A stretch of DNA of 56,216 nt, from NCBI GenBank assembly GCA_025354565.1, contig JANXMQ010000108.1:1-56216 (forward strand). Direction: 5' to 3'. Origin of the DNA: Akkermansiaceae bacterium. GTDB taxonomy: Bacteria; Verrucomicrobiota; Verrucomicrobiia; Verrucomicrobiales; Akkermansiaceae. A program made the position numbers and the translations under genes. The notes under the pieces were generated by a model. It saw only the letters and a list, made by a program, of their open reading frames with translations, was not told the DNA's origin and did not search any database. Shown in pieces: positions 510 to 22,859 of the stretch (position 1 is the first letter of the stretch; the number at the start of each line of letters is the position of its first letter).

Positions 510-2072
510 TTAGCAAACGAAGTTCTTGCGCAGGCGAAGCGTGACCGCAAACCCTCCTGACGCTGGTAGCGAGGCCACGGCATCTCCTCCGCAGGCTTCC
601 ATGGAAGCCCGGACGATGGCAAGGCCGAGGCCGCTGCCTCCGGTATCGCGACTGCGGGAACGATCCGGTCGATAGAAAGGCTCGAACAAACGGGCGAGCT
701 CGTCGGGTGGAACGCCGGGGCCGTCGTCTGTTACCGTGATCTCGATGAAGTCCGCGCTCTCGGAAGCATCGATCAGGACCTTTGCGTTAGAACCAGCGTG
801 AATGGCCGCGTTTCTGATAAGATTGCGAACGGCTCTGGTGAGTAATGTCGCATCGGCAACTACGGTCAGCGCTGGCGCGATCCTGATTTCCGGGATTCTA
901 ACACCTCCTTCGCGGGACGCGACCTCGCGGAGCAGCGGCTCTAGCAAAATCGACTGCAGATGGGGTTTGCGATTTCCAGCCCGTGAAAAGTCGAGGATTT
1001 CCTCCACCAGTGTCGCGAGTTCCTGGGCATCCGCTTCGATGGCGGCCAAGCGGGCTTGCTCTTGTTCCCCGAGTTTCATCTCGAGGATGCCAAGCCCTGT
1101 GCGCATCCGGGCCAGCGGTGAGCAAAGTTCGTGTGCGGCATCACCCAGAAAGCGCTTTTGCCCGGAAACCAGATGGTCGAGTTGATCAGCCATCGTCTCG
1201 ATCGCATGTCCGAGATTTCCCAGTTCATCGTTGCCACGGGTAGGTAGTGAGACTTTGAATTGCCCGGCGGCGATCCGATCAGTGACGGCTGTTAGTCTGC
1301 GGATGTAACGAGTGATACCCCAGACCAAAGGTGTCCAGAAAGCGAGACTGAGTGCGAGTACGGCTAGGCCGCCCCAGAGCCATGGCTTGAACTCAAAAAA
1401 CATGCCCGAGCCATCCAATCTATCAGATCGAATCAGTAGCAATTGATGATTCCTCGGTTGACCAGGACGGCCGGGCAGCACCAATTCGACCCCCGCCCAG
1501 TAGCCATCGCCATTTTCGCCACGCATTAGTAATACCGGTCGCGTGGGAGGCTGCTGATCCAGCGCACCTGGTCCGTTTCCCGCTACGCCGGGGCGCTCGT
1601 CGGGTGGACGATTTTCCATATCATCGAAGGGTGGTGGGCCGAAATCATCAGGCAAGTCACCATGCGGAGGTGGCCCGTCAGCGGCATTTGGGCGCGGCGG
1701 GCGACGGCGTGGCGGTGGTCCAGGCTGGGGCGGGATTGCCGTTTTCGCACGATTTTGGACGTTTGCGGGAATAGTGAAAGGGCTGTCAGCAAGATTTCCG
1801 GGATCAAAAATAGCGGCGGTGACATTTTTCCGCGATGCCAAGGGGGCGATCGCGGCGTTCCACTCCGATCGGGGCCGTTGAATGATTACATTGCGGGAGA
1901 CCTCACCGAAGTTCCGCAGCCGCTCGCCAGCAGAGCCGCTGAGCAACGAATCCAAGCCAAGACCCAGTTGCCAGCCGACGAACCCGATAAATGCCAGCGC
2001 CAATACCAGCAGATGCAACAGCAGGCAGCCAAGCACTTTTGCTAACAGGGGGAAATAGGGACGGGATTTCAT
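510..2072 (-). CDS. CpxA-like membrane sensor histidine kinase
   Basis: Inner-membrane sensor kinase of 520 aa. A first membrane segment lies at about residues 12-38 and a second at about 232-253. They bracket a periplasmic sensor region containing an unusually proline-rich stretch (about 113-165), which echoes the proline-rich linkers of the EF-hand proteins encoded next door. A HAMP linker follows (about 254-305), then a HisKA H-box with phospho-acceptor H314 (context AAHELCSP), and a HATPase_c domain with N-box (NLIRNAA) and G-boxes (DDGPGVP, GGSGLGLAI). All catalytic boxes are intact. The start codon overlaps the stop of the response regulator gene by 4 bases (ATGA), so the two are translationally coupled. 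Signal and target genes are inferred only from position; Cpx-type kinases are known to sense envelope stress or metals. Confidence 0.93.
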   Translation of the reverse strand: MKSRPYFPLLAKVLGCLLLHLLVLALAFIGFVGWQLGLGLDSLLSGSAGERLRNFGEVSRNVIIQRPRSEWNAAIAPLASRKNVTAAIFDPGNLADSPFTIPANVQNRAKTAIPPQPGPPPRRRPPRPNAADGPPPHGDLPDDFGPPPFDDMENRPPDERPGVAGNGPGALDQQPPTRPVLLMRGENGDGYWAGVELVLPGRPGQPRNHQLLLIRSDRLDGSGMFFEFKPWLWGGLAVLALSLAFWTPLVWGITRYIRRLTAVTDRIAAGQFKVSLPTRGNDELGNLGHAIETMADQLDHLVSGQKRFLGDAAHELCSPLARMRTGLGILEMKLGEQEQARLAAIEADAQELATLVEEILDFSRAGNRKPHLQSILLEPLLREVASREGGVRIPEIRIAPALTVVADATLLTRAVRNLIRNAAIHAGSNAKVLIDASESADFIEITVTDDGPGVPPDELARLFEPFYRPDRSRSRDTGGSGLGLAIVRASMEACGGDAVASLPASGGFAVTLRLRKNFVC

Positions 2073-2797
2073 GGTTGGCCAAAATCGGAGGTGTCCGGCT
2101 CGTGAAGCGAATAGCCGATGCCACGAATGGTCCGGATGAAACGCGGGTTTTTCGCATCATCGCCGAGTTTCTTCCGCAAGGAGGACACGTGCACATCGAT
2201 CGATCGATCAAAGATATCGAAACGCCGCTCGGATACTTCCTCGATGAGTCGCTCCCGGGTTTTCACGCGCCCCTTGGATTTCACCAGCGATGTTAGGATC
2301 GCAAATTCTAATGTTGTTAGGTCGAGCGGTTTGTCGCCGAGGACCGCAGTATGGGTTTCCTCACAAAGCCGGAGCGTGCCGACGCACAGCTCGCGGGGCG
2401 TCTCGTTTTCCACCGGGATGCGTGCGCGGCGCGTCACTGCCCGCAAACGCGCCAGCAGTTCTCTGGAGGAAAATGTTTTCGGCAAATAGTCGTCCGCGCC
2501 AATTTCTAGACCCACAATACGATCCGCCTCATCGCCCAGTGCGGTCAACATCAGGACCGGCACGTCGGATTTTTTCCGAAGCTCCTTGAGTACGGCGAAG
2601 CCATCCATACCCGGCATCATCACGTCCAGAATCACCGCCTCGTAGGGAAACGCCAGGGCTTCGGCCAGTCCATCCGGCCCGTTGTGGCGCAGCTCCACGG
2701 TGTAACCCATGGGTGTTAGATAGTCACGAATAAGCCCAGCGAGCTTGCGATCATCATCGACGACCAGCAGTCGTCGGGAGCCTTGCGTTTCCACCAT
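2069..2797 (-). CDS. OmpR/CpxR-family response regulator
   Basis: DNA-binding partner of the downstream histidine kinase. The N-terminal receiver domain has the acidic pocket (D14, D15), phospho-acceptor D58 (context VILDVMMPG), T85 and K107. A C-terminal OmpR-type winged helix follows, ending near residue 240 with the typical wing (IRTIRGIGY). I prefer the ATG at 2797, which begins MVETQGS directly before the first receiver strand. An upstream in-frame ATG at 2827 would add ten residues with no domain role and would sit very close to the putative operator at 2840-2855. That operator has the spacing of a CpxR box, which makes autoregulation and control of the divergent EF-hand gene plausible. 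Confidence 0.93.
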   Translation of the reverse strand: MVETQGSRRLLVVDDDRKLAGLIRDYLTPMGYTVELRHNGPDGLAEALAFPYEAVILDVMMPGMDGFAVLKELRKKSDVPVLMLTALGDEADRIVGLEIGADDYLPKTFSSRELLARLRAVTRRARIPVENETPRELCVGTLRLCEETHTAVLGDKPLDLTTLEFAILTSLVKSKGRVKTRERLIEEVSERRFDIFDRSIDVHVSSLRKKLGDDAKNPRFIRTIRGIGYSLHEPDTSDFGQP

Positions 2798-2839
2798 GAC
2801 GAGGTTCTTAGCAGATCCGGACGTCATCCGCCCATCGCT

Positions 2840-2855
2840 TTTACAAAAATTTTAC
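2840..2855. promoter_or_regulatory. CpxR-like direct-repeat operator GTAAA-N6-GTAAA
   Basis: On the plus strand TTTAC occurs at 2840-2844 and again at 2851-2855. Read on the minus strand this is GTAAA-N6-GTAAA with an 11-bp period, matching the known CpxR consensus (GTAAA, 4-8 nt, GTAAA). It lies between the divergent response-regulator and EF-hand genes. A weak -10-like TACTAA at 2877-2882 would put a plus-strand start near 2889, with the box centred at about -41, a normal activator position. The operator role is inferred from pattern and placement. Confidence 0.55.
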
Positions 2856-2952
2856 ACTTTCATGCCTGATCCCACATACTAAGTTCACAATCCGCCGCTT
2901 TCATCGTCACAGTTCCCGCCCCAAGGGAGTCCAACAAGCAACCCAAAATACC

Positions 2953-3378
2953 ATGAAATTAAATCGCATCCACCTCCTAGTCGCCGTGCTCGCCACCGTC
3001 ACTGCGAATGCCGCAGAGCCAAAAACTCCTCATCCGCCACTCCCGCCCTTACTCGTCGCCCTTGATACCGACCGCGATGGCGAGCTCTCCGCCGCCGAGA
3101 TCGCCAAGGCCTCCGCCGCACTGAGCGAACTCGATAAAAACGGCGACGGCAAATTGACCCTCAAGGAAATCCTTCCGCCACCGCCAAAGGGTGTCACCCC
3201 GCCGCCACCGCCACCAGCCCCAGGCCCTTTGTTCGCCGCCATCGACCTGAACAAAGATGGTAGCCTTTCCGCCAGTGAAATCGAGGACGCCCCCCTCGCC
3301 CTCCTGACCCTCGACAAAAATCACGACGGCAAGCTCTCCCGCAAGGAACTCAATCCACCACCACCGCCGGCTCCATGA
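2953..3378 (+). CDS. Secreted EF-hand calcium-binding protein, four loops
   Basis: Small exported protein of 141 aa. A Sec signal peptide (MKLNRIHLLV...TANA) is probably cut just before AEPK. The mature part has two pairs of EF-hand-type loops with the DxDxDG pattern: DTDRDGELS and DKNGDGKLT, then DLNKDGSLS and DKNHDGKLS. Proline-rich linkers (runs of PPPP) separate the pairs. Such loops bind Ca2+ in the EF-hand/dockerin superfamily. It is the first gene divergent from the two-component system and is followed by a paralogue with the same architecture. No enzymatic domain is visible; a calcium buffer, sensor or scaffold in the periplasm or outside the cell is the most that can be said. Confidence 0.88.
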   Translation: MKLNRIHLLVAVLATVTANAAEPKTPHPPLPPLLVALDTDRDGELSAAEIAKASAALSELDKNGDGKLTLKEILPPPPKGVTPPPPPPAPGPLFAAIDLNKDGSLSASEIEDAPLALLTLDKNHDGKLSRKELNPPPPPAP

Positions 3379-3387
3379 TCCCCCCGA

Positions 3388-3420
3388 ACTCCGTCCCGGG
3401 GCTTTCCTCCGGGACGGAGT
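3388..3420 (+). terminator. Strong stem-loop downstream of the first EF-hand gene
   Basis: A perfect 12-bp inverted repeat (ACTCCGTCCCGG at 3388-3399, CCGGGACGGAGT at 3409-3420) encloses a 9-nt loop, starting 10 bases after the stop codon. There is no T-run, so it is either a rho-independent-like terminator without a U tract or an mRNA 3'-end stabiliser partly insulating the two EF-hand genes. Confidence 0.65.
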
Positions 3421-3546
3421 CATTCCGTAATTTGCAACTTTCCAGCGATTTCACAAACCATATTCTAACGCCGGATCCTATCATCCTACGATCGCCCCAA
3501 GCTTCCCCCCCGCGCTGAATTTGAATCCATACCAACAGACAACCCG

Positions 3547-4107
3547 ATGAAAACAACACGCATTCATTTAATCCTCGCCTTGGTGGCGAGCGTCGTCGCA
3601 TCCGCCCAGCAGCGTCCACCGCAAGGAGATCGCCGCCCGCCACCCGGACCACCGCCGGGCCAGCCGCCAGTCCCCGCACTCTTCATGGCGTTGGACACCA
3701 ACCACGACGGATTCCTCTCTACCGAGGAAGTCCAGGCCGCCGCCGACGTGATCGCGAAACTTGATAGAAACCACGATAAAAAAATCAGTCTGGATGAATT
3801 CCGGATGCCACCGCCAGATGGGAAAAAGTCACGAAAAGACCCAAATAAACCCAATGGTCCACCACGCGGCAAACCCCCGCTGCCACCCATTATCGAGGCG
3901 CTAGACACCGACCACGACGGCACCATCTCTGCGGAGGAAATGAAAAACGCCCCCGAATCGCTGAAGACTCTCGACAAGGACGGCAATGGCGAGCTCTCAC
4001 CTGAGGAACTGCGTCCTCTAGGCCCGCCGCCACCTCCTGAAGGTGGCGGGGATGGCGATGGTCCTCAAGGCCCACCGCCCACCGGTGAGAAGCCCTATGG
4101 CGAATAA
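3547..4107 (+). CDS. Secreted EF-hand calcium-binding protein, second paralogue
   Basis: Exported 186-aa paralogue of the preceding EF-hand protein. The signal peptide ([10 protein letters not shown]...VVASA) is cut before QQRPPQ. Four loops occur in two pairs: DTNHDGFLS and DRNHDKKIS, then DTDHDGTIS and DKDGNGELS. The second loop has K instead of G at the turn position (NHDKK), so it may bind calcium weakly. Proline/glycine-rich linkers lie before, between and after the pairs, including a C-terminal run rich in PPP and GDG. The resemblance to the proline-rich periplasmic loop of the neighbouring histidine kinase suggests, but does not show, a physical or signalling link. Confidence 0.87.
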
Positions 4108-4152
4108 GCCAGGACGGCAGACTCAGCCGATCCCTTGCTGAAACCCAACCCA

Positions 4153-4187
4153 GATTCCGCCCGGGCTACCCCGGTCCGAGCGGAATC
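4153..4187 (+). terminator. Stem-loop between EF-hand gene and YHYH gene
   Basis: Inverted repeat GATTCCGC (4153-4160) and GCGGAATC (4180-4187), with an additional inner CCGGG/CCCGG pairing at 4161-4174. It lies between the second EF-hand stop and the YHYH-protein start. It is probably a terminator or processing site; no T-run follows. Confidence 0.5.
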
Positions 4188-4213
4188 ACGCAAAACCTAT
4201 TTTTGACGCACCC

Positions 4214-7200
4214 ATGAAACCGCTCATCCTTTCCATCGCCGCCCTCACCTCCATGTCGGCTCTTGCTGACCCCCAGCTCACGTCGTGGTTCACCGCGAAC
4301 TCCGGCAAATACGCCCGCATCTATACCACCACCGCGAACCAAACATCGCAAACAAGCTCCACGACTTGGGCGCTTGGCAGTGGCACACAGACGAACCCAG
4401 CCTATGCGGGCGTGCATGAAATCAACTACTCTGCGAGCTACATCTACATCCGCACGACCGGCCTCGCCTCGCATCTCATGGGGCCGTGGTATCTCGACTC
4501 TGCAAAAACCCAGATTTTCCCGAACTATCCGTCCAACACCTCGGTGGTGTATAGAATCCCGCGAAGCTCCACGCTCGGCACGCCACCGGCCACGAAAACA
4601 CTCACCGGCAACGGCGCAATCGGCTATTTCGTGAACGGCGTGGCCTTCTTCGACAACCGCGACGCTTTTTCTTACAAGAACTCGAGCACGACCGACGCCA
4701 CGCCCACCAACGGCCTCACCGGCGATGGCATTTGGAACCGCAACGCCTACGCAAACGAGCTGGTCACCTTCGATGCCGCCCTCGCACACCAAGCGGGAAA
4801 CAACTACCACTACCACGTTAACCCGATCGCCCTGCGCTACCAGCTCAACGATCACGTCACCTCTGTCCCCAGCGCTAACACTTACGCCGAGGCCACCGGC
4901 ACCGCCACGCACTCACCCATCCTCGCCTGGGCTGCGGATGGCTACCCGGTTTACGGCCCTTATGGCTATTCGGACCCGACAAACGCCACCAGCAGCGTGC
5001 GCCGCATGGTGAGCGGCTACGTCGCGCGCAATGGCTCGAATGGCACGACCAATCTCACCACCACCGGACGCACGACGATTCCGGCATGGGCCGCCGTCGC
5101 ACAAAGCCGTGCAGCCACCCTCACCTCGGGACAATACGGCCCGAGCGTGAACGCCACCTATGCCATCGGCCACTACATCGAGGACTACGATTACCTTGGC
5201 GACCTCGGCTACACGCAAACGACCAGCTCCACCGTGCGCGATTTCGACTTGGATAAATACAACGGACGCTTCTGCGTGACCCCCGAGTTTCCTAGCGGCA
5301 CCTACGCGTATTTCTCCACCATCGACTCCAGCAATGCACCGGCATTTCCCTACAACATCGGACGCCAGTTTTATGGCAACGCGACTGGCGGCACCTCGAG
5401 CACCACGGTGATGAACGCGGACACGCCGCTCAACCAGCAGTTTCTCGGGGGCGCAAATACGGCCATCGCGATCAACACGCCGAGTGTGACCGGCACCAGC
5501 GTCACCCTCACTTGGAGCGCCACCGAGGGCGGAACTTATTCGGTGGACGCCTCGCCCAACCAGTCCACATGGACGAGCAAAGCCACCAGCATCGCCGCTG
5601 TTAGTAACACCGGAACTTCCACTTACACCGCGCTCGGCACCAGCGGCACCGAGTATGGCCGCGTGAACCGCACCGCGCTCGCCACCTACGACACCGTCGG
5701 CCAGACCGCCGCGACCGTCGCACAAACCAAGACGACCAGCTACACTCTCGGCAGCGCCAACGTTGCACCGACCCTAACGTCGATCAGCACACTCCCCGGC
5801 GCGACGAAAAACACCGCGTTCACGATCAGCTACGCGACCCTGCTCGCGGCATCGAACGCGGCGGATGCGAACGGCGACACCCTTTCCTTCCGCATCGAAG
5901 CGGTGAGCACTGGCACGCTCACGAAAAACGCCGTCGCAGTCACCGCAGGCAGCACTCTCATCAGCAGCGGCGAGAGCGTGGTGTGGACGCCCGCGACGAA
6001 CGCATCCGGCACCTTGGCGGCGTTCACCGTGAAAGCCTACGACGGTTCCCTCGCATCGAGCACCGCCGTGCAAGTGAACGTGAGCGTCGCCGCCAACACC
6101 GCCCCCACCCTAACAACCATCAGCACGCTCCCCGGCGCGACCGAAGACACGGCATTCTCGATTTCTTATGCGACACTCTTCGCAGCCTCAAACGCAGCCG
6201 ATTCAGACGGCGATGCGATTGCATTTCAAATCCAAGCGGTCAGCACTGGCACTCTCACGAAAAACGGCACGTCCGTCACCGCAGGCAGCACCTTGATCAG
6301 CAGCGGCGACAGCGTGGTGTGGACCCCTGCGGGAAATGCGAATGGCGCGCTCGCCGCCTTCACGGTGAAAGCCTACGACGGCCAAGCTGCATCCAGCACG
6401 GCGGTGCAGGTGAGTGTAACGACCGCAGCGGTGAACGACGCGCCGACCCTAACCACTCTCAGCACGCTCACTGGCGCGGTGAAGAACACCGCTTTTACTA
6501 TCAGTTATTCCACACTGCTTGCCGCATCGAACGCGGCGGATGCCGATGGCGACACGATCCAATTCCGCATCGACGCCGTGAGCAGTGGCACGCTCACGAA
6601 AAACGGCACCGCCGTCACCGCAGGCACCACGACCCTCACGACCGGAGACTCGCTGGTCTGGACGGCTGTGTCGAATTTCACCGGCACCACCGCCGCGTTC
6701 ACCGTCGAGGCCTGGGATGGCGTGCTTTTTTCCGGCACGCCGATCACCGTGAACGTCACCGTCACCACCAGCGACCCGCAGCTCACGTCATGGTATGTCG
6801 CCCAGAGCGGAAAATACGCCCGCATTGTCGAGACGGACACCGAGCTTCTCGCGAACAGCACCAAGACGACGTGGAGCTATGGTTCGCTCTCGCAAACACT
6901 GCCCGTCTATGCCGGCCCGCAACAGGTGGACTACAGCTCGGGCTACGTTTATATCCGCACGCCGGATCTCGCGACCTACACGATGGGCCCGTGGTATAAC
7001 GACGCCGCCCGCACCACGCATTTCGTGAACATTCCGAAAAACCAGGGTCTCATCGTCAAGCTGCCGCGCTCGAGCACACTTGCGGCGATTCCTTCCACGA
7101 AAACGCAAACGCCGGGTTACACTTTCGGCGGCGTGCTTCAAGATGCCGTGGGTTGGCTCGTGGATGGCGTTGCGATTTTCGATCCGCTCGACGGCTACAG

Positions 7201-9247
7201 CTATAGCGGTGGAACGGAAGCCCAGGGCGGTGCGGGCCAATGGCATCGCGACGCCTACGTGAACGAGGCCATCACTTTCGATAAATCACTCGCCCACGAG
7301 CAGAACACCGGGAAATACCACAACCACGCGAACCCCATCGCCCTGCGCTACCAACTCGGCGACAACGTGACTTTCAACAACACCTCCAAAGCCTACGCCG
7401 AGGGCAATGTCACCAGCCCCACGCAGCACTCGCCGATCGTCGGCTGGATGCTCGATGGCCTGCCCGTCTATGGCCCCTACGGTTACAGCAGTGCGTTGAA
7501 CTCGGCGAGCGGCGTGCGGCGAATGATCGGCGGTTTTGTAAAACGTGACGGCACGACCACCGGCGCGGACAACATCAGCACCACCGGCAGCGCCCGCACC
7601 CTGCCCGCATGGGCACTGCGACTCAACGGCAACGTGAGCGCCTCCGGCCCGAACGTCAGCGCGACCTATCCGTTTCCACGCTACATCGAAGACTGGACCT
7701 ATCTCGGCGACTTGCAAAAAAGTGCGGGCGTCTATTACCAACAAGGCACGGATTTCGACCTCAATGAATACAACGTCCGCTACTGCGTGACCCCGGAATT
7801 CCCCGGCGGCACATGGGCCTATTTCCTCAACATCTCGTCCGCCGGTGCTCCGCAGTTTCCCTACATGTGCAACCGCTGGTTCTACGGCGCACCCGCTGGC
7901 GGCACCGTCACCACCGTGAGCGAAACGGTGACGAGCCAGTTCATCGGCGGCGCGAATCGCCCGCTGTCAGTCACCAACGCAAGCGCCAGCGGCACCACCG
8001 TCACCCTCACTTGGAACGCCACCGAGGGCGGCACTTACTCGGTGGACGCCTCTCCGAACAATAGCACCTGGACGAGCAAAGCCACAGGCATCGCGGTTTC
8101 TAACACGAACACCGGCACCAGCAGCTACACCGCGCTGGCCGCCAGCGGCACCGAGTTCGGACGCGTGAACCGCACCGCGCTCGCCAGCTACGACTCGACC
8201 GGCACGACCGCCGCCACCGTTTCACAAACCGCGTCTGCGAGATACGTGATCGTTCCGCCCGCATTGGCCGTCACGCCTGCGTCCGGGCTCACCTCCAACG
8301 GTCCCGCAGGCGGCTCGTTCTCGCCCGCAAGCACCAGCTACACGTTGACCAATTCCGGCACCGGCACCTTGTCATGGACCGCCTCGAAAACCGCCACTTG
8401 GCTCGATCTCTCCGCCACCAGCGGCACACTCACCGCAGGGGCCACCGCCACGGTCAGCGTGACGATCAACTCGTCCGCGAACAGCCTCGCTGCAGGAAAT
8501 TTCAGCGACACGATCACTCTAACGAACAGCACCAACGGCACCGGCAACACCACCCGCGGAGTCAGCCTGGCCGTCCTCTCGACCAACGCCAACCTCTTCG
8601 CCCTCAGTCTCAGCAGCGGCACGCTTTCGCCAACTTTCTCCAGCGATACTCTCGCCTACACTGCCAGCGTTTCTAACGGCACCAGCTCACTCACCCTCAC
8701 CCCGACCACGCAGGATGGCAGCGCCACGGTGAAAGTGAACAACACCGCCGTGACCTCCGGCAGCCCAAGCGGCACCATCACGCTCGCCGTCGGCGACAAC
8801 GTCATTAGCACTGTCGTCACCCCCCAAAGTCTAACACCGACGAAAACCTACACCGTCACTGTCACCCGCCTGAGCGCCATCCAAAGCTGGAAACAGACCT
8901 GGTATGGCACCAGCGCTAACAGTGGAAACGCCGCCGACCTCGCTGATCCGTATGCCACCGGCTACCCAAATCTCGCCGTGTTCGCATTCTTCGGCCCGAG
9001 CCAAAACCCCGCCACCGCAGGCAGCCTCCAGCTCCCGCAACCCGCCCTCAGCGGTGGCAACATCCGCTACGATTTCACCCAGCCAGCCAATGTTTCCGGC
9101 ATCACCTACGGCGCTCAATGGACCACCACCTTGCTCTCTAACGATTGGCACGACATCGCAGAAACCGGCAGCGGATTGCAGCATATTTTCAGCGTCCCAG
9201 CCAGCAATTCCCGGACACTCCTACGGCTAAAAGTGACTTCCCAATGA
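4214..9247 (+). CDS. Giant secreted protein with two YHYH domains and Ig-like repeats
   Basis: 1677-aa exported protein with a Sec signal peptide (MKPLILSIAA...SALA). Order of parts: a YHYH-family domain (about 20-410) with the signature YHYH at 198-201; a fibronectin-like segment (about 420-510); three Ig/cadherin-like repeats of about 110 residues (about 516-853), each starting near APTLT; a second YHYH-type domain (about 856-1240) whose signature is YHNH at 1035-1038; a second copy of the fibronectin-like segment; a BACON-like segment; a cadherin-like beta-sandwich (about 1455-1550); and a short tail. YHYH proteins are uncharacterised secreted proteins whose His-rich signature suggests metal binding. 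The position between EF-hand proteins and a di-heme enzyme supports a redox or metal-related surface role. The protein is rich in Thr, Ser and Ala, as is common for surface proteins. Confidence 0.88.
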   Translation: MKPLILSIAALTSMSALADPQLTSWFTANSGKYARIYTTTANQTSQTSSTTWALGSGTQTNPAYAGVHEINYSASYIYIRTTGLASHLMGPWYLDSAKTQIFPNYPSNTSVVYRIPRSSTLGTPPATKTLTGNGAIGYFVNGVAFFDNRDAFSYKNSSTTDATPTNGLTGDGIWNRNAYANELVTFDAALAHQAGNNYHYHVNPIALRYQLNDHVTSVPSANTYAEATGTATHSPILAWAADGYPVYGPYGYSDPTNATSSVRRMVSGYVARNGSNGTTNLTTTGRTTIPAWAAVAQSRAATLTSGQYGPSVNATYAIGHYIEDYDYLGDLGYTQTTSSTVRDFDLDKYNGRFCVTPEFPSGTYAYFSTIDSSNAPAFPYNIGRQFYGNATGGTSSTTVMNADTPLNQQFLGGANTAIAINTPSVTGTSVTLTWSATEGGTYSVDASPNQSTWTSKATSIAAVSNTGTSTYTALGTSGTEYGRVNRTALATYDTVGQTAATVAQTKTTSYTLGSANVAPTLTSISTLPGATKNTAFTISYATLLAASNAADANGDTLSFRIEAVSTGTLTKNAVAVTAGSTLISSGESVVWTPATNASGTLAAFTVKAYDGSLASSTAVQVNVSVAANTAPTLTTISTLPGATEDTAFSISYATLFAASNAADSDGDAIAFQIQAVSTGTLTKNGTSVTAGSTLISSGDSVVWTPAGNANGALAAFTVKAYDGQAASSTAVQVSVTTAAVNDAPTLTTLSTLTGAVKNTAFTISYSTLLAASNAADADGDTIQFRIDAVSSGTLTKNGTAVTAGTTTLTTGDSLVWTAVSNFTGTTAAFTVEAWDGVLFSGTPITVNVTVTTSDPQLTSWYVAQSGKYARIVETDTELLANSTKTTWSYGSLSQTLPVYAGPQQVDYSSGYVYIRTPDLATYTMGPWYNDAARTTHFVNIPKNQGLIVKLPRSSTLAAIPSTKTQTPGYTFGGVLQDAVGWLVDGVAIFDPLDGYSYSGGTEAQGGAGQWHRDAYVNEAITFDKSLAHEQNTGKYHNHANPIALRYQLGDNVTFNNTSKAYAEGNVTSPTQHSPIVGWMLDGLPVYGPYGYSSALNSASGVRRMIGGFVKRDGTTTGADNISTTGSARTLPAWALRLNGNVSASGPNVSATYPFPRYIEDWTYLGDLQKSAGVYYQQGTDFDLNEYNVRYCVTPEFPGGTWAYFLNISSAGAPQFPYMCNRWFYGAPAGGTVTTVSETVTSQFIGGANRPLSVTNASASGTTVTLTWNATEGGTYSVDASPNNSTWTSKATGIAVSNTNTGTSSYTALAASGTEFGRVNRTALASYDSTGTTAATVSQTASARYVIVPPALAVTPASGLTSNGPAGGSFSPASTSYTLTNSGTGTLSWTASKTATWLDLSATSGTLTAGATATVSVTINSSANSLAAGNFSDTITLTNSTNGTGNTTRGVSLAVLSTNANLFALSLSSGTLSPTFSSDTLAYTASVSNGTSSLTLTPTTQDGSATVKVNNTAVTSGSPSGTITLAVGDNVISTVVTPQSLTPTKTYTVTVTRLSAIQSWKQTWYGTSANSGNAADLADPYATGYPNLAVFAFFGPSQNPATAGSLQLPQPALSGGNIRYDFTQPANVSGITYGAQWTTTLLSNDWHDIAETGSGLQHIFSVPASNSRTLLRLKVTSQ
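5501..5712 (+). repeat. Intragenic duplication, copy 1 (fibronectin-like segment)
   Basis: This stretch of the YHYH gene is closely similar at DNA level to 8000-8232. Both encode VTLTW, then ATEGGTYSVDASPN, then a shared EYGRVNRTALA/EFGRVNRTALA block. Similarity at silent positions suggests a recent duplication or gene conversion of the whole YHYH plus fibronectin unit. Confidence 0.75.
8000..8232 (+). repeat. Intragenic duplication, copy 2 (fibronectin-like segment)
   Basis: Partner of the repeat at 5501-5712 in the same gene, following the second YHYH domain exactly as copy 1 follows the first. The distance between copies (about 2.5 kb) matches the spacing of the two YHYH domains. Confidence 0.75.
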
Positions 9248-9306
9248 GTCATGCGGCGTCTGGAAATTGATGACATTCACGGCCATCCCATGCAGAGTGC
9301 CAAGCG

Positions 9307-11058
9307 ATGAAAGCAGCCACCCGTCACCCCGCGCTTGTCCTTTTCCTGATCGCCGCAGGACTTGCGTCCGGTCACGCCCGCGGTGCCGCACTTGAAGTCG
9401 CCGTGCGCCACACCATCGGCGGCGCACCTTTACTGTTAGACTCTCTGCGCTATGAAAATTCCGCCCGCGAGACGATGTCGTTTTCGCGCGTGAGCTGGCT
9501 CGCCAGCGGTTTCGGCATCGAACGCGAAGACGGCACATGGCTCGAACTCACTGACCAATTCGCATGGATGGACGCCGCAAAAGGCCGCACCAGCGTGCGT
9601 TTTGAAAATTTGCCCGAGGGGAAATACCGCGCCCTGCGTTTTCATATCGGCCCCGATGCGAAATGGAACGCCGCCGATCCCGCCACGCTCGCCGCAGATC
9701 ATCCGCTCAATCCGAACCTCAACGGCCTGCACTGGAGCTGGCAGGGCGGCTACATTTTCCTCGCCATCGAAGGCATGTGGCGCACCGGCACGGAAGCACC
9801 CACGGGCTTCGCCTACCACTTCGCCAGAGATCCGTACCGCACGCGCCTCAGCCTCGCCGCGCCCATCGACCTAACAAACGACGCCTCGGTCATGCTCGAT
9901 TTCGATCTCGGCGCCCTGCTCAACGCCCCGCAACCGCTGTCGTTCGCGAAGGACGGCACCGCCACCCACTCACGGGACGGCGATCCGATCGCCGCCGCCC
10001 TCGCCGCGAACCTGCGCGGCGCGTTCCGGGTCACGCATGTGCTCTCGGCAACACCGGCGATCAGCAGACCCTCACCCTTGAAGCCGCTCTATCTGCCGGA
10101 AAAATTCACGCCTTACCGCTTCACCATGAGCTCGACGTTTCCCATCCCCGATCTGCCACGCGACAATCCGCTCATCGAGGAACGCGTCGCGCTCGGCAAA
10201 GCGCTCTTCCATGAGACCGCCCTCTCCCGCGACGGCACGCTCTCCTGCGCTTCCTGCCACGAGGAAAAGCACGCGTTCACCGACGCCCGCCGCTTCAGCA
10301 TCGGCGTGCGGGGCCAGCTCGGCACCCGCAATTCCATGCCGCTCACCAACCTCGCCTGGAAGTCGGATTTCTTCTGGGACGGCCGCGCCCCTTCACTGCG
10401 CGCACAGGCGCTCATGCCCATCCAAGATCACACCGAGCTGGATGAAACGCTGGACAGCGTCACCGCGAAACTAACGGCTAACCAAACCTTCCCTCCTATG
10501 TTTTCCTCCGCATTCGGTTCACCGGAAATCACTGCGGAAAAAATCGGCCTCGCCATCGAAAACTACCTACTCACCCTCACCTCCTTCGATTCCAAATTCG
10601 ACCGCGCCATGGCGGGCAAGGTCTCCCTAACAGACGATGAAAAGCGCGGCTTTGAACTCTTCATGACCGAATATGAACCGCGCACCCGCCAGTACGGCGC
10701 GGACTGTTTCCACTGCCACGGCGGCGCGTTGTTCAGCGACCACCAGTTCCACAACAACGGCCTGGAAGGTGACGACCGGGGCCGCGCAAAAATCACCGGC
10801 TCACCTGCCGACGATCACAAGTTCTCCACGCCCAGCCTCCGCAACGTCGCCCTAACAGCGCCCTACATGCACGATGGCCGCTTCGCCACTCTGGAGGAAG
10901 TCGTCGAGCACTACAGCAGCGGCGTGCATCGCAGCCCCACCCTCGACCCGAACCTCGCCAAGCACCCGGAAAAAGGCCTCAACCTCAGCACCGAAGACAA
11001 GGCTGCGCTCGTAGCGTTTTTAAAAACCCTCACCGCTGAAACTAAACCCGCGCCATGA
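9307..11058 (+). CDS. MbnP-like domain fused to MauG/MbnH-like di-heme peroxidase
   Basis: 583-aa exported protein (signal peptide about 1-27). Residues about 28-230 look like the MbnP family (copper-associated, known from methanobactin loci), including the tryptophan-rich motif HWSWQGGYIFLAIEG at about 142-156. Residues about 245-583 are a bacterial di-heme cytochrome c peroxidase/MauG-type enzyme with two c-heme sites, C314-A-S-C317-H318 and C467-F-H-C470-H471. In methanotrophs separate MbnH (di-heme) and MbnP proteins are known, and MbnH oxidises a tryptophan of MbnP to kynurenine. Here both sit in one chain, which suggests self-modification; W143 or W145 is a candidate target by motif only. 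The gene follows the YHYH gene by 59 bp on the same strand. The di-heme half is certain. The MbnP assignment is from memory of the motif. Confidence 0.85.
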   Translation: MKAATRHPALVLFLIAAGLASGHARGAALEVAVRHTIGGAPLLLDSLRYENSARETMSFSRVSWLASGFGIEREDGTWLELTDQFAWMDAAKGRTSVRFENLPEGKYRALRFHIGPDAKWNAADPATLAADHPLNPNLNGLHWSWQGGYIFLAIEGMWRTGTEAPTGFAYHFARDPYRTRLSLAAPIDLTNDASVMLDFDLGALLNAPQPLSFAKDGTATHSRDGDPIAAALAANLRGAFRVTHVLSATPAISRPSPLKPLYLPEKFTPYRFTMSSTFPIPDLPRDNPLIEERVALGKALFHETALSRDGTLSCASCHEEKHAFTDARRFSIGVRGQLGTRNSMPLTNLAWKSDFFWDGRAPSLRAQALMPIQDHTELDETLDSVTAKLTANQTFPPMFSSAFGSPEITAEKIGLAIENYLLTLTSFDSKFDRAMAGKVSLTDDEKRGFELFMTEYEPRTRQYGADCFHCHGGALFSDHQFHNNGLEGDDRGRAKITGSPADDHKFSTPSLRNVALTAPYMHDGRFATLEEVVEHYSSGVHRSPTLDPNLAKHPEKGLNLSTEDKAALVAFLKTLTAETKPAP

Positions 11059-15274: not shown

Positions 15275-16294
15275 ATGACATTTGCCCCGGAAAACCACCC
15301 CGCAGCGCCCGTTAGCCAGACGGACGCGGAAGCCATCGTAAGCGACGCCTCGCGCTGGATTCAACCGCTCCGCAGTGAGATCGGCCGCTACCTTATCGGC
15401 CAGACCGATCTCGTGGACCGCCTGCTGATTTCACTGATGGTCAAAGGCCACATCCTGCTCGAAGGCGTGCCCGGATTGGCGAAAACCCTGGCCCTCAAGA
15501 CGCTGGCCTCGCTGGTGAACGCGAAGTTCAACCGCATCCAGTTCACCCCGGACATGCTGCCGGCTGACATCGTCGGCACGGAAATCTACGATCCCCGCGA
15601 GGCCCGCTTCCGGGTGAAGCACGGGCCGGTGTTCGCGAATTTTATTCTAGCAGACGAAATCAACCGCGCACCCGCCAAGGTGCAGAGCGCGTTGCTGGAA
15701 GCGATGCAAGAAAAGCAGGTCACCATCGGCGAGCAGACCTTCGCCCTCCCGTCGCCGTTTTTCGTCCTCGCAACGCAGAATCCGCTGGAGCAGGAGGGAA
15801 CCTATCCGCTGCCCGAGGCGCAGTTGGACCGCTTCATGATGAAGGTGATCATGGATTATCCGACGGAGGATGAGGAACTCCGCGTGCTCGATCTGGCAGG
15901 CACCACCGAGGAAATGCCGGTGCCAGTGCCGATTGTTAGTCTGGAAGCAATCCAACAAGCGCGAACGGTGGTGAACAACCTCTACCTTGATGAAAAGGTA
16001 AAGCGCTACATCGTCCGCCTAGTCCATGCGACCCGCCGCCCCGCTGAATACGGTGTGCACATCGCGCCTCTGATCCGGGTGGGGGCCTCGCCACGGGCCA
16101 CTATCAATCTCGCGCTCGCCAGTCGCGCCCACGCCTTTCTGAACGGTCGCGCTTACGTCACGCCGCACGATGTGAAAAACGTCGCCATGGACGTGCTTCG
16201 CCACCGCGTGACCGTCACCTACGAGGCGGAAGCGGAAGGGCTGAACAGCGAGCAAATCATCACCCGCATTCTTGATGAACTGCCGGTGCCTTGA
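15275..16294 (+). CDS. MoxR-family AAA+ ATPase
   Basis: First gene of a seven-gene MoxR/Bat operon. This 339-aa AAA+ chaperone-type ATPase has Walker A GVPGLAKT (64-71), Walker B ILADEINR, sensor region ATQNPLEQEGTYPLPEAQ and a C-terminal lid domain. MoxR proteins act with von Willebrand A domain partners to assemble or activate envelope or metalloprotein complexes. The partners here are encoded directly downstream (DUF58, BatA, BatB). Length and all motifs are standard. The 204-bp gap upstream shows no obvious promoter; the start ATG is the first in frame and directly precedes the conserved N-terminal helix. Confidence 0.95.
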   Translation: MTFAPENHPAAPVSQTDAEAIVSDASRWIQPLRSEIGRYLIGQTDLVDRLLISLMVKGHILLEGVPGLAKTLALKTLASLVNAKFNRIQFTPDMLPADIVGTEIYDPREARFRVKHGPVFANFILADEINRAPAKVQSALLEAMQEKQVTIGEQTFALPSPFFVLATQNPLEQEGTYPLPEAQLDRFMMKVIMDYPTEDEELRVLDLAGTTEEMPVPVPIVSLEAIQQARTVVNNLYLDEKVKRYIVRLVHATRRPAEYGVHIAPLIRVGASPRATINLALASRAHAFLNGRAYVTPHDVKNVAMDVLRHRVTVTYEAEAEGLNSEQIITRILDELPVP

Positions 16295-16402
16295 AGAGGT
16301 TGATGGTTGATGGAAAGAGGAAGAAATGCGGGTTTACATAGATAACTCCTTATTCGCGTTTATTTGCGTCCATTCGCGGTTAAATTCTAAAGTAAAAATT
16401 TC

Positions 16403-17350
16403 GTGATCCAACACAAAGCCAGCACGCCTGTTAGCATGGATGACGAAGCCCGCGCGGCGGAAATCCTCGGCCGTGTCCGGCGGATGGAAGTCCGCACGAA
16501 CCGCTTGGTCGATGACTCGCTGGCAGGCCGCTACGCCAGCGTTTTCAAGGGCCGGGGCATGGACTTCGACCGGGTGCGGAATTATGTGCCGGGCGATGAC
16601 GTGCGGACCATCGACTGGAACGTCACGGCCCGCACCGGCGAGCCACATGTGAAGCTTTTTACCGAGGAGCGCGAGCTGACTATTTTACTGATGATCGATG
16701 TCAGTGCTTCGTCGGATTTCGGTTCGGTGGTCGATTCCAAGCGCGAGCTCGCCGCCGAAGCCGCGGGTGTTCTAGCAGCTTCGGCGATCCGCAACCGGGA
16801 CAAGGTTGGGTTAATCTTGTTCAGTGACACGGTGGAGTTATACATTCCACCGGGCAAGGGCCGGATGCACATTATGCGGCTGATCCGTGAGACTTTGTTT
16901 TTCCAACCCGCAAATCGAGGCACGGACATTGGGCAGGCATTGGATTTTGCGAATCAAGTAGTGCATCGAAAATCGGTGATTTTTCTGGTGTCGGATTTCT
17001 GCCTCGGCGCACCGTTTGAGGAACGGCTGAATCATCTCCGCAATAAACTGCAAGTTACGAACCGCCGACACGATGTCATCGCCGTTTCCGTGACCGATCC
17101 GCGCGAGGAATCATTGCCGAACATTGGGCGCATCCGCATCGAGGACGCGGAAACCGGGCAAGTCGTCGAGCTAGATACCGGCAGCGCGAAAGTCCGTGAG
17201 GCGTTTGAAAAACAATCCCGCAGCCGCCGCGAGTTGACCGCCGCCCGTATCCGCTCGCTTGGTGTGGATTTGCTGCAATTCACCAACGGCCAAAACTGGA
17301 TGCCCGAGCTGATGGGCTTTTTCCAAAGCCGCCGCCAACGCTCCGGCTGA
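16403..17350 (+). CDS. DUF58 domain protein (vWA-like, MoxR partner)
   Basis: 315-aa cytoplasmic protein of the DUF58 family, the usual companion of MoxR. The core motif GRYASVFKGRGMDFDRVR and the Y.PGDDVRTIDWN block are present. A vWA-like fold follows with a MIDAS-type DVSASS. The reading frame opens with GTG at 16403; the ATG at 16436 (starting MDDEARAAE) is an equally good start, and neither has a Shine-Dalgarno sequence. It lies 108 bp after moxR and 11 bp before the next gene, so it belongs to the same transcript. Confidence 0.92.
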   Translation: MIQHKASTPVSMDDEARAAEILGRVRRMEVRTNRLVDDSLAGRYASVFKGRGMDFDRVRNYVPGDDVRTIDWNVTARTGEPHVKLFTEERELTILLMIDVSASSDFGSVVDSKRELAAEAAGVLAASAIRNRDKVGLILFSDTVELYIPPGKGRMHIMRLIRETLFFQPANRGTDIGQALDFANQVVHRKSVIFLVSDFCLGAPFEERLNHLRNKLQVTNRRHDVIAVSVTDPREESLPNIGRIRIEDAETGQVVELDTGSAKVREAFEKQSRSRRELTAARIRSLGVDLLQFTNGQNWMPELMGFFQSRRQRSG

Positions 17351-17361
17351 TTTTTCCCGCG

Positions 17362-17973
17362 ATGTCCGATTCCCGTTCCATGCTCCGACGTGTCTTCCGC
17401 GGTCTCCTGATCGCGGCGCTGACCTGCAATCTATCCGCCCAAGCTCCCGATGCCGCCGAAGACATCCGCCCAATTAAAGAAGTGGTGGTTGTGCCCAAAA
17501 CATTTGCAGAAACTCTCCAAGAAAAGAAATCAACTGTTGTGCTCTGGTCGAGCATTGTTGGTGGTGTGCTTTTGCTGGTCATTGGACTGCTTCTGTGGAG
17601 AAGACACTACCTCAAACGACAGCTCAATAGTTCGGCAAGAATCGCATTGTCGGCTCTGCGTGACCTCGAATCAGATCAAGAAGGGATTGGAGCAGAAGCA
17701 TTCGCCTATCTTGCTTCAAAGGTAGTCAGGCAATACATCGCCGAGCGTTTCGGCCTAGCCGCTCCGCGCCGCACAACAGAGGAATTTCTCCGAGATCTCG
17801 CGAAGGAGGAAGCCATGCCGCTCATCGCCGAGAGCGACCACCTGCGGGTGTTCCTGAAATCCTGCGATCTCGCGAAGTTCGCCGGATCCAACCTCGACTC
17901 CACCCAGCGGGTCGAACTCCTCAATGCGGCCTGCGGCTTTATCCGCTCCACGTCCACAGCCGTCACGCCATGA
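17362..17973 (+). CDS. DUF4381-type membrane protein of the Bat operon
   Basis: 203-aa protein with an N-terminal signal-like segment (about 9-26), a short periplasmic stretch, one membrane helix (about 62-82, VVLWSSIVGGVLLLVIGLLLW) and a cytoplasmic C-terminal domain typical of the small DUF4381-like protein between DUF58 and BatA. The end overlaps the batA start by 4 bases (ATGA), showing coupling. Unusually, the middle of the gene (about 17460-17720) is clearly lower in GC and uses different codons from both flanks, as if that tract had been replaced by recombination. Function in the complex is unknown. Confidence 0.78.
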   Translation: MSDSRSMLRRVFRGLLIAALTCNLSAQAPDAAEDIRPIKEVVVVPKTFAETLQEKKSTVVLWSSIVGGVLLLVIGLLLWRRHYLKRQLNSSARIALSALRDLESDQEGIGAEAFAYLASKVVRQYIAERFGLAAPRRTTEEFLRDLAKEEAMPLIAESDHLRVFLKSCDLAKFAGSNLDSTQRVELLNAACGFIRSTSTAVTP

Positions 17974-18977
17974 CCGAGAGTTTCCAGTTTCTCCATCCGG
18001 AATTCCTGTTCCTCCTGCTGCTCCTGCCCATCCTGGCGATCTGGAAGGGCCGCTGGGGCAGGCCGGTCGCCATCCGGATGCCGTCCACCGACGACGCCAT
18101 CCACGTCGGAGCGAAAACCCGCTCGAAGATCGGCGGGTTCATGGTGTTCCTCGGGCTTCTATCATTCGCGTTGCTGATCACCGCGTTCGCCCGCCCACGC
18201 CATGGCAAAGGCTCGACAGACATCGAGGCCAGCGGCATCGACATCGTGCTCACGCTGGATGTGTCCGGCTCGATGGAAGCACTGGATTTCAAAATCGCAG
18301 GCACGCCGACGAATCGCATCGAGGTGGTGAAAGGCGTGGTCGCGAAGTTCGTCGGTCAGCGCCCTAACGACCGTCTCGGCATGATCGCCTTCGCCGGTCG
18401 GCCCTATCTGGTGAGCCCGCTGACACTGGATCACGAGTTTCTCGGCAAGCGCCTTCAGGATGTGAAACTCCATCAAGTCGAGGACGGCACCGCCATCGGT
18501 TCCGCCATCGCCACCTCGGTAACTCACCTTCAGGATTCCAACGCGAAATCGCGCATCATCATTCTTCTAACTGATGGTGTGAATAACGCCGGTGCGGTGA
18601 ATCCGCTCACCGCCGCCGAGGCTGCGAAGGCGCTGGGGATCAAGATTTACACCATCGGCGTAGGTATCAGGGGCGATGCGCCGGTGCCGGTGCAGGACGC
18701 TTTTGGCCGCACCCATTTGGAGATGATGAAGGTGGATGTGGACGACGAAATGCTTCACAAAGTGTCCGAAGCCACCGGCGGGCAATCGTTCCGGGCGACG
18801 GACACCGATTCTTTGGAGAAAATTTACGATTCGATCAACCAACTTGAAAAAACCAGCCGCAAGCTCAAACAATATCAACAGTATGACGAACTCTATCTGT
18901 ATTTCCTCATTCCCGGATTATGCCTGTTGCTGTTGGAAATGATCCTCAGCCAAACCCGGTTTCGCCGGCTTCCTTGA
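17970..18977 (+). CDS. BatA-like von Willebrand A membrane protein
   Basis: 335 aa. Two N-terminal membrane helices (about 10-26 and 53-71) are followed by a vWA domain with a complete MIDAS (DVSGS in LTLDVSGSMEALDF, and TDG near residue 197), then a C-terminal helix (about 309-329). This is the BatA layout. BatA and BatB are membrane partners that are presumably worked on by the MoxR ATPase. In Bacteroides the locus is linked to aerotolerance, and in other bacteria to envelope integrity. The next gene starts 8 bp later. Confidence 0.93.
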   Translation: MTESFQFLHPEFLFLLLLLPILAIWKGRWGRPVAIRMPSTDDAIHVGAKTRSKIGGFMVFLGLLSFALLITAFARPRHGKGSTDIEASGIDIVLTLDVSGSMEALDFKIAGTPTNRIEVVKGVVAKFVGQRPNDRLGMIAFAGRPYLVSPLTLDHEFLGKRLQDVKLHQVEDGTAIGSAIATSVTHLQDSNAKSRIIILLTDGVNNAGAVNPLTAAEAAKALGIKIYTIGVGIRGDAPVPVQDAFGRTHLEMMKVDVDDEMLHKVSEATGGQSFRATDTDSLEKIYDSINQLEKTSRKLKQYQQYDELYLYFLIPGLCLLLLEMILSQTRFRRLP

Positions 18978-18984
18978 ACCCACC

Positions 18985-21009: not shown

Positions 21010-22859
21010 GTCCATTCCATCATCGAAATTTTTCCCGCCGCCTCGCGGAAATGGCCGCCTTTTGGATGGCTATCTTGATTTGCCTAACATCCCGACTTGC
21101 GGCAGCGGAGGTGGACGTTCAGCTCGACCGCGATTCCGTTCCCGCTGGCAACGGAGCCCAACTAACACTTACCATTTCCGGCGACAACGCCGGCCAGCCG
21201 GAGATCCCAGAGGTCGAGAATCTCATCGTCCAACCGCGCGGGCAGAGCAAGCAGGTCCAGATGATGAACGGGCACACCAGCGTCTCGGTGACCTATACCT
21301 ACATTGTGGGTTCTAACACTCCGGGCGACTATCAGATTCCGGCCATCGAGGTCGTCGTCGATGGTAAAAAAATTTCCACCCGCCCGCTCAAGTTGAAAGT
21401 GTTAGGCCAAGGTGCCGCGCAACCGCCACCCGGCATTCCGGCCAACCCGGCTGGCACGTCACCTGCGGCTGAAAACACCGAAGATGCTAGCAAGCGTTTC
21501 GGGTTTCTAACGGTCGAGCTGGCAGCCAATGACCGGAAGCATGTTTATGTCGGGGAAATCGCGCCGGTCCGCATCCAGGCTTGGTTGCCTGCGGATTCCC
21601 GCGCCGGACTCCGCAGCGGCATCCAACCGGAGGGCAAGGCATTCACCTTGCACAACGTCAGCAGCCACCCGCAGCAGTCGCAGGAAATGAAGGACGGCAA
21701 GCGATACACCGTCATCACTTGGTTCGGCGGGATGTCCGCGACCAAGGCGGGGAAATACCCGGCGTCACTCTCGTTAGATGCCACCGTGGCCGTCCGCGAC
21801 TCCTCGGCCCCCAAGCCACGCCGACGGATGGGCGGGCCATTCGACGATCCGTTTTTCGACAGCGTATTCGATCAGTTGGACACGCCGATGATCCAGAAGG
21901 ATGTCACGCTCAAGTCCGACGATCAGGAAATCGAAGTGCGGCCGCTGCCCACTGAAGGCCGTCCCGCCGGGTTCACCGGCGCGGTTGGCGATTTCAAATT
22001 CGACAGCGAGGAAATCCCTAACACCTGGAAAACCGGCGAGCCCCAACAGATCACCGCCCGTCTCAGTGGTTCGGGAAATTTCGCGCTGATGAACGCCCCG
22101 GACCTCACTCCGGCGGATGCCTGGAAAACCTATCCGGGCAAGGGCGAGTTCACTGCCGGGGACGAGGCGTCGTTTTCCGGCAGCAAGAGTTTTCAATTCA
22201 GCGCTGTCCCGCGCAAGGGCGGGGCACGGGAGGCGGCGCTCGCCTTCAGCTACTTCGATCCCGCCGCCGGAGCCTATCGAACACTAACAAGCCAGGGTCG
22301 GGAAATCCAGGTCGCCGGTGAGGACATTCCGGAGGACAAACCCGCCGCCGCGCCTGCGGTGATCGAACCGGAAAATCCGCGCGTGGGACTCATCGGCCAG
22401 CATTTGAAAGCGGCTCCAGCCGCCACCTTGGTTCCGCTGGTTTCACGTCCGGCATTCATGTATCTGATAGAAATTTCCGCCGGACTTTGCGGGCTTGGAA
22501 TCATCCTCGCCTGGCTGCGCGTGCGCCGGGAAGATCCCAAACGCCGCGCCCTCGCCGCCCTAGAAAAGGCCACCCGCGAGGCGCTCGAAGCGGCCAACGC
22601 CGCCAAGGACGTTCCCGGCTTTTTCGCCGCCGCCCGCCTCGCCATGCAGCAGCGGCTCGGCGCGTTGTGGAACCAACCGGCCCAGGCGATCACCCTAGCG
22701 GAAATCCAATCCCGCATCCCCGACGACTCACCGGTCACGCGGTTTTTCCACGAGGCCGACCGCCATGAATACAGCCGACTCGCCAGCGGCGAGATCCTGC
22801 CACAATGGCGGGCGTTGCTCGCTGAAGCCCTAGCCTCCCTCACTCCTTCCACCCGTTGA
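21003..22859 (+). CDS. BatD-like membrane protein
   Basis: 618-aa BatD-family protein. A signal peptide at about 15-37 follows an N-terminal extension (a later ATG starts MAAFWMAILI). Long periplasmic beta-rich domains begin VDVQLDRDSVPAGNGAQLTL and include YTYIVGSNTPGDYQIP. One membrane helix lies near 485-505, followed by a cytoplasmic C-terminal helical domain (about 510-618). BatD is thought to form the periplasmic part of the Bat complex. Overlap with the gene upstream and a 1-base gap to batE show tight coupling. Confidence 0.9.
   Translation: MVSPFHHRNFSRRLAEMAAFWMAILICLTSRLAAAEVDVQLDRDSVPAGNGAQLTLTISGDNAGQPEIPEVENLIVQPRGQSKQVQMMNGHTSVSVTYTYIVGSNTPGDYQIPAIEVVVDGKKISTRPLKLKVLGQGAAQPPPGIPANPAGTSPAAENTEDASKRFGFLTVELAANDRKHVYVGEIAPVRIQAWLPADSRAGLRSGIQPEGKAFTLHNVSSHPQQSQEMKDGKRYTVITWFGGMSATKAGKYPASLSLDATVAVRDSSAPKPRRRMGGPFDDPFFDSVFDQLDTPMIQKDVTLKSDDQEIEVRPLPTEGRPAGFTGAVGDFKFDSEEIPNTWKTGEPQQITARLSGSGNFALMNAPDLTPADAWKTYPGKGEFTAGDEASFSGSKSFQFSAVPRKGGAREAALAFSYFDPAAGAYRTLTSQGREIQVAGEDIPEDKPAAAPAVIEPENPRVGLIGQHLKAAPAATLVPLVSRPAFMYLIEISAGLCGLGIILAWLRVRREDPKRRALAALEKATREALEAANAAKDVPGFFAAARLAMQQRLGALWNQPAQAITLAEIQSRIPDDSPVTRFFHEADRHEYSRLASGEILPQWRALLAEALASLTPSTR

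Follow-up and report, generated by a model that had tools for sequence, protein, structure and literature searches.

Gene content of the locus

We analyzed a stretch of DNA of 56,216 nucleotides from an Akkermansiaceae bacterium (GenBank assembly GCA_025354565.1, contig JANXMQ010000108.1), which is referred to in its whole length as the window, and focused on a module of six genes near its start, in which a two-component pair is followed, on the opposite strand, by two small EF-hand proteins, a double-YHYH protein, and a single-chain MbnP/MbnH-like fusion. The pairing of YHYH with the single-chain MbnP/MbnH-like protein was found to be real and strong. The six genes are open reading frames (ORFs) in the ORF list of the window (Table 1), and this list and Pfam agreed with the initial annotation in both the positions and the domain types that it had given. 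The export of the window proteins was judged by eye from their N-termini. The draft genome to which the window belongs, as contig C84, has 5.1 Mb and a single MbnP match; of its three YHYH matches, two are inside the window gene and one is on a different contig.

The fusion was indicated computationally to contain, in a chain of 583 residues, MbnP (PF20243, 92.3 bits against a cut-off of 27) and then a di-heme peroxidase/MauG domain (PF03150 CCP_MauG, 179 bits against a cut-off of 25.6). Its AlphaFold2 model, built on 21 sequences, was graded confident, with a predicted local distance difference test score (pLDDT) of 83.3 and a predicted template modeling score (pTM) of 0.78. Residues 25–251 of the model matched MbnP 7l6g with a Z of 18.5 (213 residues aligned, root mean square deviation 3.4), and residues 269–582 matched MbnH 6e1c with a Z of 28.1 (301 aligned, 2.5), which was the best structural match of the C-terminal half; cytochrome c peroxidases also matched this half, with a Z of about 24–25. 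A search of the PDB with a profile of the MbnP domain gave 7l6g as the sole match (E 0.0068, limit 1), with the WxW motif and one histidine aligned. Conservation was evaluated in the 71 frames holding both MbnP and MauG domains, out of 74 MbnP neighborhoods of the family, the window included. The first CXXCH heme motif was present in all 71 fusions and the second in 70, with one gap. W143, the first tryptophan of WxW (W143-S-W145 in the window), was retained in 69, the other two being gaps, so that tryptophan was found wherever the residue was present, and W145 was retained in 54. Among the histidines, H142 was retained in 69 (two gaps), H171 in 70 (one gap), and H132 in 63. A different layout was observed in G178 (L113:8603-10331), where the MbnP and MauG parts are in two overlapping frames of 371 and 244 amino acids.

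The YHYH family PF14240 matched the window protein with 211.9 bits over two stretches (cut-off 25). The subfamily of this protein, defined by the profile A2 at E ≤ 1e-60, is hereafter termed linked YHYH. In all 64 full-length linked domains, a set that took in only domains of 280 residues or longer, H199, H201, H233, and D242 of the predicted metal site were invariant. An N-terminal region in which W25, W52, M89, and W92 are conserved is also present in the linked domains and is mostly missing from canonical and viral YHYH, and D242, D324, and R352 are conserved across the linked, canonical, and viral sets. A tree of the core region, covering 64 linked, 21 canonical, and 78 viral domains after gaps had led to the removal of 4 of the 25 canonical sequences and 2 of the 80 viral ones, resolved three groups, with a support of 0.73 for the linked branch (FastTree); the canonical loci L010, L013, and L018 sit on contigs also bearing an MbnP gene. 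The viral domains failed to align with the linked set at positions 199 and 201 and, therefore, an identical metal site is not claimed for them. YHYH domains abound in viral contigs. When only the window protein was the query, no close YHYH relative was found in these contigs, and a search with the alignment gave YHYH in at least 597 of the 600 candidate stretches listed, of which the best 80 were kept (L251–L330). The phage proteins that carry the YHYH domain are those of the baseplate and the virion. No relative of YHYH was found when its profile was searched against the PDB, which gave one chance-level match (E 1.3). The fold model of YHYH, built on 17 sequences, was poor (pLDDT 42.6, pTM 0.45) and was set aside.

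Table 1. Position, strand, and supporting evidence of the module features in the window.
Feature	Coordinates	Strand	Evidence
Sensor histidine kinase, proline-rich sensor region	510..2072	-	HAMP, HisKA, HATPase_c over Pfam cut-off
OmpR-family response regulator	2069..2827	-	Response_reg and Trans_reg_C over Pfam cut-off
Direct-repeat box GTAAA-N6-GTAAA, between regulator and first EF-hand gene	2840..2855	-	Pattern match
Proline-rich protein, four EF-hand loops, exported (by eye), accessory	2953..3378	+	Pfam EF-hand
Proline-rich protein, four EF-hand loops, exported (by eye), accessory	3547..4107	+	Pfam EF-hand
Double-YHYH protein, 1677 amino acids, cadherin-like domains	4214..9247	+	PF14240 twice, Cadherin-like
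YHYH domain 1 with subfamily N-terminal region; H199, H201, H233, D242	4265..5407	+	A2 profile, E 4.6e-183
YHYH domain 2	6770..7918	+	A2 profile, E 2.3e-159
MbnP/MbnH-like fusion, 583 amino acids	9307..11058	+	PF20243 and PF03150
W143 codon, first Trp of WxW, predicted kynurenine site	9733..9735	+	Alignment of fusions

Co-inheritance and adjacency of YHYH and MbnP

Co-inheritance was examined in a family set of 195 genomes (Akkermansiaceae) and a phylum set of 387 genomes (Verrucomicrobiota). In the family set, MbnP was found in 72 genomes and Pfam YHYH in 86, with both in 69. When YHYH was defined by the A2 profile, it was found in 75 genomes, of which 70 also had MbnP (phi 0.92; Fisher 3.5e-44, uncorrected for shared ancestry, as are all Fisher tests here), and none of the 12 family genomes having other YHYH proteins only had MbnP. 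In the phylum set, MbnP was found in 22 genomes and a YHYH match in 48, and all the 22 MbnP genomes also had YHYH. The distance limit for adjacency was 5 kb, and ORF starts were set mechanically; therefore, gaps and overlaps are rough. Besides the neighborhoods with YHYH within this limit, the 74 comprised 3 with a galactose-oxidase-like gene, 9 near a contig edge, and 14 with neither. YHYH and the MbnP-MbnH fusion recur together beyond chance, being adjacent in 48 of the 74 neighborhoods, and the lack of co-occurrence by which the initial annotation would have been refuted was not observed for these two genes. The nearest YHYH gene was on the same strand in 45 of these 48, upstream in 38 and downstream in 7, and on the opposite strand in 3, and the gap between YHYH and MbnP was at most 147 bp in 41 of them. 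By the phylum coordinates, 17 of 26 MbnP places were within 5 kb of a YHYH match, including 10 of the 17 outside the family. The tendency of the secreted pair to be gained and lost jointly points to a new copper-dependent extracellular system. As the initial annotation had supposed of its gene set, no description of the YHYH/MbnP pairing was found in the literature searched, the reach of which left out the papers likeliest to treat MbnP neighborhoods.

Gene architecture was also examined in a scan of genome contigs, for the best 80 of at least 582 confirmed MbnP loci; some of these coincide with contigs of the family set and, therefore, they were not added to the family counts. Among these 80, MbnP and MauG are in one frame in 26 of the 27 loci labeled or grouped as Verrucomicrobia, the 27th (L189) having the MauG part alone, 212 bp from the contig end, and a YHYH match was found in 13 of the 27. 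The 52 loci outside Verrucomicrobia and Sumerlaeota are mostly from Bacteroidota, and in 51 of them separate frames encode MbnP and MauG, the remaining locus having MauG only. A Sumerlaeota metagenome-assembled genome (L191) has a divergent histidine kinase and response regulator, followed by YHYH, MbnP, and MauG as three separate adjacent genes. As a separate observation, a recurrent order of an LVIVD protein with a Por-type sorting tail, a protein of about 450 amino acids, MbnP, and an MbnH-like gene was seen in L233:7121-13748, L204, and other Bacteroidota, and the genes past the MbnH-like one in L233 include a SufBD-like gene.

YHYH and MbnP also occur joined with sulfatase domains. A single frame of 1646 amino acids (L169:9965-14905) holds MbnP, MauG, YHYH, and sulfatase domains, and the nearest YHYH gene had a match to a sulfatase model in 15 of the 48 loci. 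Of the YHYH frames longer than 880 residues, 17 of 25 have the motif C-S-P-x-R (x = T, S, or M), and L082 and L100 have a Pfam Sulfatase match without it. YHYH-sulfatase fusions with a formylglycine-type motif were seen near the MbnP-MbnH fusion in L072, L078, L101, L110, and others. In eight loci (L172 (11605-20283), L174, L118, L182, L130, L177, L094, and L175), the fusion is adjoined by a galactose-oxidase-like protein of up to 2979 amino acids, all eight such matches being within 69 bp of the MbnP gene; this label was assigned by Pfam for L172 and by similarity to L172 for the other seven. Galactose oxidases are a family of copper enzymes, and seven of the eight proteins have a MauG-like part of their own. 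In G013 and G024, two MbnP loci are present per genome, one for each kind of neighbor. The sulfatase fusions and the galactose-oxidase-like alternative point to extracellular polysaccharide chemistry.

The initial annotation had inferred that the system handles calcium as well as copper, which, as a core feature, was not supported by the comparison. Both small proteins have four loops of 12 residues each and missed the cut-off of the lanmodulin model NF053806 (42.4 and 38 bits against 135). An EF-hand match was found within 5 kb in only 3 of the 74 neighborhoods, counted, like the two-component genes below, with models that derive from the proteins of the window and overlook unrelated ones; the window itself is outside these 3, the distance between its EF-hand genes and the fusion being 5.2 kb. 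Among the 3, the EF-hand is the tail of a canonical YHYH protein in L096 and L098 and a separate gene in L090; beyond them, an EF-hand frame overlaps the regulator frame in L113, and EF-hand genes lie 4.2 and 1.6 kb from the fusion in L171 and L169, respectively. Because 16 EF-hand_5 matches, in nine open frames by our count, were found in the genome of the window, EF-hand genes are not rare there. With only 3 of 74 loci, EF-hand proteins were ruled out as general core parts and calcium is, therefore, not a core part of the module; the EF-hand genes are accessories, a local addition to it.

Two-component pair and GTWAA box

The best NCBIfam model was CpxA for the kinase (167.3 bits against a cut-off of 486) and OmpR for the regulator (194.7 against 331), for which CpxR gave 185.5 against 341. 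The term CpxAR-like in the initial annotation was loose, the cut-offs of both CpxA and CpxR being missed. The first 260 residues of the kinase are 13.5% proline, the highest content among the linked kinases, many of which have proline- or glycine-rich sensor regions and several of which do not; the sensor sequences are dissimilar. The box GTAAA-N6-GTAAA at 2840-2855 was the sole match in the window and appeared in 0 of 100 shuffles. It resembles the CpxR box. A pattern with repeats spaced by N5 was tried first and gave no match, the spacing being N6.

Regulator matches (E ≤ 1e-60, one per genome) were found in 35 of the 72 MbnP-bearing family genomes, namely, in 12 of 17 that had been chosen partly for having the box and in 23 of the other 55, among which is the genome of the window. 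In G027, the box was seen before the regulator was sought, and the regulator was then found. One GTWAA-N6-GTWAA box was present upstream of each of the 35 matches, within 90 bp of the matched start in 34 and at about 315 bp in G012. In the 450 bp before the domain start, the box preceded YHYH or MbnP in 15 of 29 loci with the regulator in the genome and in 1 of 16 without it (Fisher 0.003), these 45 loci being those with a usable YHYH window. In a mechanical count of the frames called in these loci, a box preceded 17 of the 162 for YHYH or MbnP, 9 of the 23 for the regulator, and 10 of the other 808. Thus, the two-component pair and the module share a putative operator in several genomes, which supports in part the regulation envisaged in the initial annotation, although related kinase or regulator genes were within 5 kb in only 7 of the 74 neighborhoods. 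Probably in response to a signal sensed by the kinase, the regulator may bind GTWAA-N6-GTWAA and control its own gene and, in a part of the genomes, the module. Terminators were not in excess in a scan of the window, which gave 14 where the mean was 12.3.

Elsewhere in the window, dnaN-like and dnaA-like genes (named by eye) are located together on the minus strand at 24161-26782, about 13 kb from the module. The region 15275-23622 encodes a MoxR-type AAA ATPase (Pfam) and then von Willebrand-like and TPR-like proteins, and resembles an aerotolerance operon (names by eye).

Proposed mechanism, alternatives, and known systems

The best reading of these results, which rests on homology, is a secreted copper module in which the fusion would make its own kynurenine Cu(I) site and the YHYH protein would be its partner, under the regulation, in a part of the genomes, of the two-component pair; we consider that it has an even chance of being correct. 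Its copper and redox chemistry is predicted from the family relatives. In biochemical work on MbnP and MbnH, MbnH reportedly oxidizes the first tryptophan of the WxW of MbnP, and work later than 2013 is reported to have demonstrated a copper site in one MbnP. By analogy, the di-heme half of the fusion would oxidize W143 of its own MbnP half to kynurenine, which, with the nearby conserved histidines (H142, H171, and perhaps H132), would form a Cu(I) site. The YHYH protein would serve the fusion as its dedicated partner outside the cell, most likely in the role of a metal-dependent enzyme or binding protein, and may receive copper from the fusion or work with it on surface polymers. The Cu(I) site of CorA consists of two histidines, water, and kynurenine (PMC3912023). 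Because the folds agree, W143 and the histidines are conserved, and the CorA site is comparable, the components of a kynurenine copper site are present in the fusion. Furthermore, on a plasmid of Deinococcus radiodurans (L366:6010-9523), MbnP and a cytochrome-c peroxidase are followed by a hypothetical gene and then by CopC and CopD. A survey of 2013 was aware of no data tying MbnP homologues to copper (PMC3621798).

Several results weigh against this copper module or its regulation. The fusion missed the cut-offs of the NCBIfam equivalog TIGR04052 for MbnP (29.9 against 140 bits) and of TIGR04039 for MbnH (230.8 against 362.85 bits), because of which the second half is named MbnH-like. Linked YHYH was present without MbnP in 5 family genomes and MbnP without linked YHYH in 2, of which G178 has a frame of 208 residues with a YHYH match adjoining MbnP (L113) and G085 has a galactose-oxidase-like neighbor (L130); in addition, several of the 22 MbnP genomes of the phylum set have YHYH matches solely of other kinds or on other contigs. 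In 14 of the 74 loci, away from a contig edge, neither a YHYH nor a galactose-oxidase-like neighbor was found. Neither the fusion nor a YHYH match was found in any of the 52 loci outside Verrucomicrobia and Sumerlaeota (among the best 80 of at least 582) and, therefore, MbnP/MbnH pairs can dispense with YHYH. YHYH has been predicted in print as a zinc binder and a hydrolase (PMC7824862). As for regulation, 14 of the 29 regulator-bearing genomes had no box before YHYH or MbnP; the window is counted among them because its box precedes the first EF-hand gene, and in five of such genomes (G064, G039, G082, G127, and G098) the module is adjoined by a different two-component pair. Control of a wide regulon by the regulator was not supported for the genome of the window, the 13 box matches there showing no enrichment over the 19 of the reversed control.

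The MbnH-like half might instead be a maturase that oxidizes tryptophan or tyrosine of the YHYH protein (for example, W25, W52, or M89-G-P-W92), with the MbnP half serving to dock it. The protein modified by MauG, which is the relative known best, is a separate one, and the almost one-to-one inheritance of YHYH and MbnP would suit such a role, as would the near-invariant tryptophans in the linked N-terminal region, although the selection of domains of at least 280 residues favors this last result. Docking, however, does not need a conservation of W143, H142, and H171 that is about as high as that of the hemes, and 51 of the 52 loci outside Verrucomicrobia and Sumerlaeota carry MbnP and MauG without YHYH; we regard the maturase as unlikely, though well within reason. 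The match of the C-terminal half to cytochrome c peroxidases could also indicate a periplasmic di-heme peroxidase that removes peroxide, combined with YHYH as a zinc hydrolase in an operon for life on polysaccharides that has no copper role, for which the published zinc prediction and the sulfatase fusions in relatives would speak. It leaves the retention of the MbnP fold and of the kynurenine-site tryptophan, and the leading place of MbnH among the structural matches, without an explanation, and appears rather improbable. That the six genes are chance neighbors, with only pairs of them related, would agree with the rarity of EF-hand (3 of 74) and related two-component genes (7 of 74) nearby, but is made highly improbable by the co-inheritance, adjacency, gene fusion, and shared box; for the EF-hand genes alone, it may hold.

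Returning to the copper module, a further possibility, which is tentative and in our view doubtful, is that the YHYH proteins of this clade form a new class of copper enzymes that are secreted, act on polysaccharides (sulfated or other), and are metallated by a single-chain MbnP-MbnH loader that processes itself, and that the galactose-oxidase-like proteins could be an alternative client of paralogous loaders, which two genomes have next to the YHYH kind. MbnP/MbnH pairs are spread far beyond methanobactin producers, and have here a dedicated partner family that is inherited almost one to one with them. This pairing makes the purpose of the kynurenine copper site and the ligand of YHYH addressable in culturable Verrucomicrobia.

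In comparison with known systems, the two-component pair resembles CpxAR/OmpR-type systems in domain order but is below the NCBIfam cut-offs and has a proline-rich sensor. The window YHYH shares the core motif with the virion YHYH of jumbo and marine phages (PF14240; PMC7824862), whereas its subfamily forms a separate tree group, has the extra N-terminal region, is bacterial, and has a secretion-type N-terminus. CorA/CorB and MopE/SACCP, with their Cu(I) site of two histidines, water, and kynurenine (PMC3912023), are alike in the would-be tryptophan-to-kynurenine copper site with a di-heme partner, and differ from the window version, which is fused and adjoins YHYH. No methanobactin gene was named among the Pfam-scanned neighbors, among which no search was aimed at such genes. 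A further likeness is to the methanotroph MbnP/MbnH pair (7l6g and 6e1c; PF20243 and TIGR04039), in the folds, the first tryptophan of WxW, the two CXXCH motifs, and the gene partnership, whereas the window proteins are fused, are below both NCBIfam cut-offs, and stand beside YHYH. The system is a variant of the MbnP/MbnH kind with a YHYH partner family.

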